Source: an uncultured Bacillota bacterium | GTDB lineage: Bacteria; Bacillota_I; Bacilli_A; Erysipelotrichales; Erysipelotrichaceae | Assembly (NCBI GenBank): GCA_949290085.1 | Contig: CASEQH010000005.1 | Location: 1-40,160 of the forward strand | DNA: 40,160 nt | Direction of reading: 5' to 3' | In this document: positions 37,662 to 40,160 of the stretch, one piece after another | Layout of the letters: the number at the start of each line of letters is the position of its first letter | How positions within the stretch are numbered: position 1 is the first letter of the stretch | Translations under genes and position numbers: made by a program | The notes under the pieces: model-generated | Databases searched by the model: none | What the model saw: only the letters and a program-made list of their open reading frames with translations | What the model was told of the DNA's origin: nothing

Positions 37662-37667
37662 ATGGTT

Positions 37668-38975
37668 ATGAAGTTAGAAATTAAAAAATATGGCATCAAT
37701 GGTGAAGGGATTGCTTATGATCATTCTATACCAGTCTTTATTAAGGGAGCTCTTGTAGGTGAGATAGTTGATGCAAGCATCGTTGAAGATAAGCGAAAAT
37801 ATAAGATAGCTAGAATAAATAAGTTAATAAAAACTAGCTCAAAAAGAGCTAAGGTGCAGTGCAAATATTATAAAAAGTGTGGAGCTTGTGCCTTATTGCA
37901 TGTCGATTATGCTGAACAATTGAATTGCAAAAAGGCAATTTTAGAAGAGTCTTTAGCGAAGTATGCTAGTGTAGATATCGATGTGAAGATTGAAACCAGT
38001 CCTAAAACTGAGCATTATCGCAACGCCTTAAAACTACCAATTAAGAAGATAGCTAATAGACTAGTAGCAGGTTTGTATGAAGATGGCACTAATCGCTTTA
38101 TCAGGATAGATAATTGTCTAAACCATGATGTAAAATTACAAAGAAACCTAAATATCGTTTTAGAGATCCTGAATAAACATCATTTAGATGCTTATGACCA
38201 TAAGGCAAAAAGAGGAATCAGATATATCACACTTCGCCTACTCGATGGTAAATGTGCTTTATGTTTGGTGAGTGGAAGTGATGAGATAGATGAAGCCATA
38301 GTTCAAGAAATGCTTTTAAATAGTGATATCGTCAGCATCTATCAATCTATCAATACTAGTAAAAGTCATGAGATATACGGTAAAAATATGCGACATTTAG
38401 GTGGCAGTAAAGCTCTTGTTTTTACGTATAAAGATATGAAGATGGAAATATCAATCAGATCTTTTATGCAACTAAATACCCAAGCAGCATTTAAGCTCTA
38501 TGACTATGTATATAACTTAGTTGATGATGATAATAAATTGCTAATAGAAGCCTATTCTGGTTTAGGACTCATGTCTTTCTTGTTGCATGAAAAAGCTGAA
38601 GAAGTTGTAGGCATAGAGATAATTGAAGATGCGGTACACAATGCCAATGCCAATGTAAAAAGAAATAAAATAGATAATATCACTTTTATTACTGGCGATT
38701 GTGCTGATGTCTTATATCATAAATATCGTAAGACCCACATAGACACATTGATTGTCGATCCACCTAGAACTGGGCTTGATGATAGAATGTTAGAATGTTT
38801 ACTTAAAGCTAAGCCCGATAATATTATCTATATCTCATGTAATCCATCTACTTTAAGCAAGAATATCCATACTTTATTAAGACATTATAGTATTGAGTCT
38901 ATAAGAGCCTTTGACCTATTCCCAAATACCCAACATGTAGAGACAGTAGTACTGCTTTCCCACAAAAAAACCTGA
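37668..38975 (+). CDS. rlmD: 23S rRNA (uracil-C5)-methyltransferase RlmD/RumA family
   Basis: This SAM-dependent enzyme makes 5-methyluridine in 23S rRNA. The 435-residue protein has an N-terminal TRAM domain (KKYGINGEGIAYD through RKYKIARINKL), an iron-sulfur-type cluster CKYYKKCGAC, the SAM loop LIEAYSGLGLMSFLL, DPPRTGLDD, and the nucleophile Cys in ISCNPSTL. It ends normally in QHVETVVLLSHKKT and a TGA at 38973-38975. An A7 run (38964-38970) sits just before the stop; with one A fewer the frame would continue into the tail at 38971-39285. This is the second family member in the window. The 3' end of rumA genes is a known insertion site for conjugative elements. Confidence 0.92.
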   Translation: MKLEIKKYGINGEGIAYDHSIPVFIKGALVGEIVDASIVEDKRKYKIARINKLIKTSSKRAKVQCKYYKKCGACALLHVDYAEQLNCKKAILEESLAKYASVDIDVKIETSPKTEHYRNALKLPIKKIANRLVAGLYEDGTNRFIRIDNCLNHDVKLQRNLNIVLEILNKHHLDAYDHKAKRGIRYITLRLLDGKCALCLVSGSDEIDEAIVQEMLLNSDIVSIYQSINTSKSHEIYGKNMRHLGGSKALVFTYKDMKMEISIRSFMQLNTQAAFKLYDYVYNLVDDDNKLLIEAYSGLGLMSFLLHEKAEEVVGIEIIEDAVHNANANVKRNKIDNITFITGDCADVLYHKYRKTHIDTLIVDPPRTGLDDRMLECLLKAKPDNIIYISCNPSTLSKNIHTLLRHYSIESIRAFDLFPNTQHVETVVLLSHKKT

Positions 38976-39285
38976 CAGCTCAATCAGCGTAAAAGTCGAG
39001 TTTGGCGAGGGAGAAGGCAAAGTGCCGCTTGATAACATCGCTAAAAGAGCCGAGGCGTATAAGCCGAAAGAGCGAGTTACCTACAAAATGATAAAGGAAT
39101 ACATAGAGGCTAAATATGGCTTCAAGGTACATACCGCTTATATAGCAGAGGTAAAAAGAAGTTTTGGCTTGTCAATGTATGATGCCCCTAATGCGGTAGA
39201 AGAATTGAAACAGCCGAGAAAACATCCGACAGCAGAGAAAGTGGAAGCCATAAAGGATGCGTTGAAGCATTTTAAAATGATTTGA
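38971..39285 (+). pseudogene. Out-of-frame C-terminal tail of an rlmD-type gene
   Basis: In the frame +1 to rlmD, the sequence is open from before the A7 run to the TGA at 39283-39285. It reads PDSSISVKVEFGEGEGKVPL, then RVTYKMIKEYIEAKYGFKVH, TAYIAEVKR, and HPTAEKVEAIKDALKHFKMI. I recall this type of tail on RlmD/RumA proteins and on DNA methylases of Clostridia. 31 of 60 bases in 39001-39060 are G or C, against 22 of 60 in 38881-38940. A GTG at 39022 could start an 87-residue product, but no ribosome binding site is convincing. It looks like a donor gene end brought by an element and left one base out of frame. Confidence 0.7.
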
Positions 39286-39291
39286 GTTAAG

Positions 39292-39326
39292 AAGTTACCT
39301 GGTTATTATAGCTAGGTAATTTTTTA
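39292..39326 (+). terminator. Terminator after the rlmD tail
   Basis: TTACCT (39295-39300) pairs with AGGTAA (39314-39319), extended by flanking wobble pairs on both sides, followed by a run of T at 39320-39326. Confidence 0.7.
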
Positions 39327-39330
39327 TATT

Positions 39331-39374
39331 TCTGTCCCAAAACTATATATCTTTGTCCCGAAATGTGATATGAT
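39331..39374 (+). promoter_or_regulatory. Promoter with a 21-bp-spaced direct repeat before the AAA+ gene
   Basis: TCTGTCCCAAAA (39331-39342) and TTTGTCCCGAAA (39352-39363) recur 21 bases apart. The second copy abuts an extended -10 TGATATGAT (39366-39374). A GGAGGTG ribosome binding site follows before ATG 39401. The repeat is a candidate regulator-binding site spaced by two helical turns. Confidence 0.55.
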
Positions 39375-39400
39375 GTATAAAATGATGGAGGTGTTCTCTT

Positions 39401-40160
39401 ATGAAAAAACAAAATATATTAAATTTGATAAAATATCATGTTGAAAGAAATGAGAGTGCATTTAGAAATGAAGCAGTAAATATAGCTAAATATTTTGATG
39501 CTAATGGTGATTATCAGTTAGCAGAATATATAATGGGATTAATAGCAGAATCTAACTTGTATGTTCCGCAAGCAAGCGATTTTGAAAGTGAATTTTTAAA
39601 ACAAATAGATATTAGAGAATTGCAGCCTCTAAATTTACCTATAGAGATTTCTAATGACATAAAAGGAGTGATTAATGCTGTAAATCATAATGTTGGTATA
39701 AATAAATTTTTGTTTGAGGGATTACCTGGAAGTGGAAAAACGGAAGCAGCAAAACAAGTAGCAAGACTACTTGACAGAACTTTATATCTTGTTGATTTTG
39801 AACATTTGATTGATAGTAAGCTAGGTCAAACCAATAAAAATATTGCCGGTGTATTTGCAGAAATAAATAGGATTCCATGCGCTAATAAAGTCGTTATTTT
39901 GTTTGATGAAATAGATGTAATTGCTTTAGACAGGGTTAATAGAAATGATGTACGTGAAATGGGGCGTGTGACTTCCACTATTTTAAGAGAACTTGATAGA
40001 TTAACAGATTTAAACAAAGAAATAGTGATTATTGCAACTACAAATTTATACGCTAACTTCGACAAAGCTCTGATTAGACGTTTTGAGGCAGTGATTAATT
40101 TTAATAGATACAGTAAAGAAGATTTGATGGAAGTTGCTGAGCACTACTTTACCTCTTTCG
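39401..40160 (+). CDS. AAA+ ATPase, C-terminus beyond window
   Basis: The frame is open from ATG 39401 to the window edge, 253 codons. A short helical N-terminal region (NLIKYHVERNESAFRNEAVN and DYQLAEYIMGLI) precedes the ATPase domain. Walker A is GLPGSGKT at residues 107-114, Walker B VVILFDEID has Asp169/Glu170, sensor 1 is IIATTN, and the arginine-finger region is ALIRRFEAVI. The N-terminal helices and single AAA domain resemble ATPases I recall next to subtilisin-like S8 peptidases in variable genome regions, proposed as defence pairs; the partner would lie beyond base 40160. Antisense frames over this gene are shadows. It has its own promoter and GGAGGTG ribosome binding site. Confidence 0.88.
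   Translation, partial: MKKQNILNLIKYHVERNESAFRNEAVNIAKYFDANGDYQLAEYIMGLIAESNLYVPQASDFESEFLKQIDIRELQPLNLPIEISNDIKGVINAVNHNVGINKFLFEGLPGSGKTEAAKQVARLLDRTLYLVDFEHLIDSKLGQTNKNIAGVFAEINRIPCANKVVILFDEIDVIALDRVNRNDVREMGRVTSTILRELDRLTDLNKEIVIIATTNLYANFDKALIRRFEAVINFNRYSKEDLMEVAEHYFTSF

Follow-up and report, generated by a model that had tools for sequence, protein, structure and literature searches.

A truncated ietA gene behind an integrase-tailed rlmD marks a divergent IetAS clade with a probably self-regulating ATPase

The window, meaning the whole stretch of 40,160 nucleotides analysed here (contig C5 of a draft genome of 1.12 Mb in 72 contigs), breaks off inside an ATPase gene whose product, as judged by its profile matches, is IetA, the ATPase partner in IetAS, a known anti-phage and toxin-antitoxin pair. 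The system as such is already known, and the clade found here is, from its sequences, a divergent variant whose ATPase apparently regulates itself and whose vehicle is a serine-integrase element at rlmD. It is considered likely that a serine-integrase element sits in rlmD, that its cargo is IetAS, and that IetA both restrains the peptidase IetS and represses its own operon. To our knowledge, there is no settled account of how IetAS senses infection or is kept quiet; the operator, the DNA-binding domain and one residue within it co-vary in this clade, which makes control of the system testable by gel shift and point mutants. The features that carry this reading are collected in Table 1, in which L005 is the related locus in the isolate genome of Catenibacillus scindens.

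Table 1. Features at the rlmD-ietA boundary of the window and within the truncated ietA gene.
Feature	Position	Strand	Basis
rlmD, host gene struck by the element	37662..38975	+	TIGR00479 rumA, E 3e-92
rlmD / serine-integrase junction (attachment-site region)	38934..38970	+	DNA identity to L005 starts at 38934; junctions compared
Element-borne tail, 3' end of a large serine integrase gene	38965..39285	+	92% identity to L005 tail
Terminator-like short hairpin and T run (TTACCT...AGGTAA, then TTTTTT) in the tail-to-operator gap	39295..39325	+	direct reading
Putative operator half-site 1, TGTCCC	39333..39338	+	conserved in homologues
Putative operator half-site 2, TGTCCC, inside the -35/-10 spacer	39354..39359	+	conserved in homologues
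-10 box TATGAT (TATAAT in most relatives)	39369..39374	+	aligned upstream regions
GGAGG	39387-39391	+	direct reading
ietA, first 253 codons of about 355	39401..40159	+	PADLOC IetA, phrog_3757, 98% identity to L005 ietA
Walker A, GLPGSGKT	39719..39742	+	direct reading and homologue alignment
Walker B, VVILFDE	39890..39910	+	direct reading and homologue alignment
Sensor 1 (IATTN, 40031-40045) to arginine-finger pair (RR, 40076-40081)	40031..40081	+	direct reading and homologue alignment

The reading frame that begins with the ATG at 39401 stays open up to the contig end, and because the contig is exactly 40160 bases long, ietA is cut after residue 253 and the following gene is unreadable here. 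The product matches PADLOC IetA over residues 4-251 (E 9e-35), which covers both the helical N-domain and the motor, Pfam AAA over residues 104-235 (E 6e-24), and phrog_3757 (E 1e-57), a phage protein family with no assigned function; a search of viral contigs for relatives found none. The protein is 98% identical to the full-length IetA of the Catenibacillus locus, and the DNA of the tail and ietA together is 96% identical to it. The AAA+ ATPase of the original prediction was described as having intact Walker A, Walker B and sensor motifs behind a small helical N-terminal region. All of these motifs are present and, with the arginine pair, are invariant or nearly so across 26 aligned homologues, and in the complete Catenibacillus protein three N-terminal helices are predicted (residues 3-15, 19-34 and 38-48). 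The best fold matches of the predicted IetA structure are to the proteasomal ATPases PAN and Rpt, to Vps4 and to FtsH (E about 1e-9). Proteasomal ATPases, Vps4 and FtsH are protein-unfolding motors, and IetA would likewise be an unfolding motor able to work with a protease, but it differs from them in its own helical N-domain, its C-terminal helix-turn-helix and its S8 partner, in place of a 20S core or a metalloprotease. A housekeeping AAA protein of the FtsH, CDC48 or PAN type was considered and rejected because those models match the AAA core only, whereas the IetA models extend across the N-domain.

The partner gene has to be read from relatives, of which one scan of genome contigs returned 42 loci. 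In the Catenibacillus locus, ietA has 355 codons and is overlapped by a downstream gene of 744 codons, and a Peptidase_S8 search of that gene matched (Pfam, E 1e-26), as did PADLOC IetS (E 4e-59). An S8 peptidase gene (ietS) overlaps or abuts ietA in the same order in 40 of the 42 loci, two of them with an incomplete ietS (L045, at a contig end, and L035, with a frameshift); two loci depart from this, L046 because only 90 bases of its ietA precede the contig end, and L010 because no more than the last 71 codons of ietS are left there. The suggestion that the gene after the ATPase may be an S8 peptidase was therefore right in relatives, including the 98% identical locus, and comparison of neighbourhoods placed the homologues with this partner and among defence genes rather than beside unrelated functions. 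The peptidase triad D276, H308 and S481, along with N407, is invariant among 24 aligned IetS proteins. The structure model of IetS has a mean pLDDT of only 58, and no conclusion is based on it. A separate sample of 392 genomes from the phylum of the window contained 25 full-length IetS, each with an IetA in the same genome, and 29 IetA, of which 25 were accompanied by IetS and 4 were alone. The source assembly itself, searched for PF00082, gave no S8 peptidase match; a break of the assembly within ietA would account for this, and the absence could also be real. On the pattern among relatives, ietS is presumably present in the source genome. As for variation within the pair, in L010, L097 and L098 an intact ietA stands next to a short C-terminal piece of ietS, which looks like loss of the peptidase with the ATPase retained, and L101 (G123:C1:667535-669718) carries two tandem ietA genes before ietS, the first keeping the DNA-binding domain and a partial operator and the second having no such domain.

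Upstream, ietA follows a host gene that bears a foreign end. The foreign rlmD tail noted in the original prediction is real, spans 105 residues and, from its sequence matches, is the C-terminal end of a large serine integrase. Intact large serine integrases that end in this same tail occur in L011 (213-2213) and L012 (5792-7864); they have Resolvase, Recombinase and zinc-ribbon domains and lie directly upstream of ietAS. In L005 the tail is fused in frame to the RlmD of Catenibacillus itself. In the window, RlmD stops at 38975 and the tail continues in a different frame; the A run at the junction counts seven (38964-38970), RlmD ending in KKT, against six in L005 and others, so that the tail is out of frame and untranslated from rlmD. 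The extra A is either biological or an assembly error. The junction sequence has a single match in the window. The site is empty in a genome of the same genus (G001), where rlmD ends in HVETVVLMSRVKGE and a stop, with no tail behind it; in that genome the tail is found on another, rlmD-like gene. More widely, the tail, rlmD or a serine recombinase lies just upstream of ietA in 17 of the 42 loci. rumA is the older name of rlmD. In streptococcal ICEs, single serine integrases target rumA, which on insertion trades its 3' part for that of the integrase gene (PMC4701971), and this exchange accounts for the order rlmD, tail and ietA at the junction. Both kinds of element insert in rumA (rlmD) with exchange of 3' ends, but the cargo at the edge is ietAS here, and the integrase and conjugation genes of the element, as well as its other att site, would fall beyond the contig end. 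Use of this site explains the movement of the pair between Erysipelotrichaceae-like and Lachnospiraceae hosts, as well as the odd tails on RlmD proteins.

Several further tails and junctions were seen. A comparison of the source genome with 4.4 kb of L005 gave no further match except for 59 bp at another rlmD-like gene, which lies on contig C7. That gene (L069, G000:C7:26000-30115) has an internal stop, with a RhuM-like gene behind it where the contig ends, and probably marks a further insertion at a site of this kind. A second copy of the tail follows ietS in L005 (5886-6239), L008 (11451-11798) and L013 (11450-11797); in L005 and L008, ietAS lies between two integrase tails about 3.9 kb apart with no integrase between them, an arrangement that looks like stacked element ends.

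The ATPase was also proposed to have its own promoter, which is real and more structured than was claimed, comprising two TGTCCC boxes, TATGAT and GGAGG. The two boxes lie 21 bp apart in the window, or two helical turns, and aligned ietA upstream regions contain TGTCCC twice at a distance of 20-21 bp, with the second copy between -35 and -10. Across 148 half-sites, positions 2-4 (G, T and C) are invariant and position 5 varies twice, while the flanks drift. The window has a single such pair, against none in 100 shuffles, and in the subset of loci counted, 56 perfect pairs were observed against 0 in 50 shuffles of 80 upstream regions. The rest of the 1.12 Mb genome has no other such pair, and hence no hint of a wider regulon. 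The boxes were found in genomes ranging from Clostridia and mycoplasma-like bacteria to Campylobacter, Actinobacillus and Saccharibacteria.

The candidate reader of these boxes is IetA itself. Proteins of the clade end in GFTVREIEKLKGESKSxVSRKL, within which helices 319-324, 329-336 and 340-353 are predicted to form a helix-turn-helix, and the Pfam match of this C-terminus to HTH_38 is weak (E 7e-4, below the cut-off). This part of ietA lies past the end of the window and is known here from relatives that are up to 98% identical; presence of the domain and the state of residue R345 were read from alignments. The box pair at 20-21 bp occurs in 74 of 75 homologues with the domain and in none of the five without it (Fisher 2.5e-7, kinship ignored). 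At least one TGTCCC is found in 70 of 72 homologues that keep R345 and in none of three in which it is replaced (Fisher 1.5e-4, kinship ignored); these three have L or F at R345 and only TGTCCT and TGTCCA, with T or A as the sixth base. On a tree built from IetA residues 1-315, that is, without the DNA-binding domain, the three losses of R345 are separate and the five domain losses amount to at least three changes. Pair tests on this tree rest on two to four independent pairs; every pair points the expected way, and their number is too small to reach 0.05. Two exceptions occur, L028, which keeps R345 yet has TGTCCT twice, and the Macrococcus locus L121, which keeps a diverged helix-turn-helix and has no such box. 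The relatives with changed or lost domains are mostly mycoplasma-like, with TGA as a sense codon and A+T-rich, fast-evolving genomes.

As the boxes co-vary both with the domain and with R345, it is very probable that IetA of this clade binds the promoter of its operon, and controls it, through its own DNA-binding domain. The sign of this control would be repression, since the second box sits between -35 and -10. Self-regulation is not general in the family, given that two alphaproteobacterial IetA proteins (L157 and L159) have C-termini with no recognisable helix-turn-helix; a C-terminal domain of this kind together with a TGTCCC operator sets the clade apart from the alphaproteobacterial IetA examined. 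About as likely as not is a fuller version of the idea, by which the ATPase itself would be the DNA-binding regulator, its helix-turn-helix reading the two boxes and R345 the last C:G pair, so that sensing or restraint of the protease would be linked to transcription, and phages would counter with a solo IetA devoid of the domain. No published account of IetA self-regulation, of the TGTCCC box or of a link between rlmD and defence was found in the literature searched, which covered few subscription journals.

These observations can be combined into a working model. A large serine integrase would insert the element into rlmD, and the window would end inside the left edge of that element. On integration, rlmD and the integrase gene would trade their 3' ends, so that rlmD would bear the integrase tail with the cargo adjoining it, and the cargo would begin with the IetAS module, made up of IetA, a classical AAA unfoldase motor, and IetS, a subtilisin-type (S8) peptidase whose reading frame overlaps that of IetA. 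As long as the cell is at rest, IetA would restrain IetS, as may be supposed by analogy with SgiAT and the IetAS pair of pTiC58, and its C-terminal helix-turn-helix would sit on the two TGTCCC boxes over the promoter, holding the operon down. The trigger may be infection by a phage, entry of a replicon or the loss of the element itself, any of which would disturb IetA by engaging or depleting it, whereupon the peptidase would be freed or fed substrates and the operon derepressed. The cell would then be protected, arrested or killed.

PADLOC and NCBIfam list IetAS as anti-phage (NCBIfam NF042959 and NF042956), and the clade shares with that system an AAA ATPase followed by an S8 peptidase, its mobility and its place among defence genes; in the relatives, the PADLOC models match IetA over its full length and IetS over a long stretch. 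The NCBIfam equivalog cut-offs are not reached, either for IteA (where the truncated IetA scores 98.8 bits and the full-length relative 101.3, against 510) or for IteS (148.9 against 900 bits), and the clade is accordingly filed as a divergent IetAS subfamily. SgiAT of Salmonella Genomic Island 1 (SGI1), which has been likened to IetAS of pTiC58, is a toxin-antitoxin pair with a subtilisin-like toxin and an ATPase antitoxin (PMC5006074). The likeness to these two pairs is by description and extends to gene order, domains and a mobile carrier; toxicity was tested for SgiAT and the pTiC58 pair, whereas the present clade is known from its sequence. A role in phage defence may be supposed for this copy and its clade by analogy with those known systems, IetAS and SgiAT.

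Whether defence is the main role is a matter of weight, for the module could chiefly keep its mobile element in place through addiction or incompatibility, a view that is possible though on balance doubtful. The first members described were a stability and incompatibility pair of a Ti plasmid and SgiAT as a maintenance pair of SGI1 (PMC5006074), the genes adjoin an integrase or its rlmD scar in 17 of the 42 loci and also occur on plasmids, and operator-based autoregulation is typical of toxin-antitoxin pairs. However, neighbours of the relatives include type I restriction, GmrSD-type and CBASS genes, and the anti-phage listing in both databases points the same way. The two roles are compatible, and defence and element maintenance both fit the evidence. 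It is unlikely that another regulator binds the TGTCCC boxes, or that these are mere promoter marks and the IetA C-terminus has some other role. Binding of the boxes by IetA is a prediction and the Pfam match to the domain is weak, but the boxes persist across distant taxa, vanish when the domain is lost and change with R345, and their single occurrence as a pair in the genome gives no sign of a wider regulon.

Two other readings concern this particular copy. The source genome might carry ietA as a solo or decaying gene with no working ietS, consistent with the negative PF00082 search and with solo or ietS-truncated ietA genes in L010, in G170 and G171 (L097 and L098), in G145 and G240 and on a Ligilactobacillus salivarius plasmid (L120). 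This is rather improbable: the contig merely ends inside ietA, in a stretch that is near-identical between species and where assemblies break, the operator is intact here while three of the five ietA genes without the DNA-binding domain also have no ietS, and close relatives nearly always keep the partner. The junction of rlmD, tail and ietA might even be an assembly chimera formed at sequence common to several species, as the near-identity to Catenibacillus in a 72-contig draft and the break soon after the ietA start in L046, another uncultured Erysipelotrichaceae draft, would allow. Such an artefact is very improbable, however, for the joint falls exactly where serine integrases recombine (PMC4701971), and the Catenibacillus isolate genome has the same tail in frame on its own RlmD.

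Among relatives, the genes around the pair, which are often other defence genes, and a solo IetA in a prophage give further context. In L008, ietAS is accompanied by type I restriction, GmrSD-type and RhuM proteins, and in the Gemella locus L023 (11324-14339) a CBASS cyclase and a SMODS-associated NUDIX effector come directly after ietAS; L025 and L027 have genes similar to this CBASS set in the same place. In a prophage of a mycoplasma-like genome, a solo IetA (L162, 9938-11023, on G145:C1) lies between the terminase large subunit and portal genes, and it has lost both the DNA-binding domain and the operator. On these features, it could be a phage-borne antitoxin that disarms the IetS of the host, and a solo phage-borne IetA without the domain hints at a natural inhibitor. 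On the L. salivarius plasmid, a solo IetA without a DNA-binding domain (L120, 4001-5005) lies near an annotated IscB gene.
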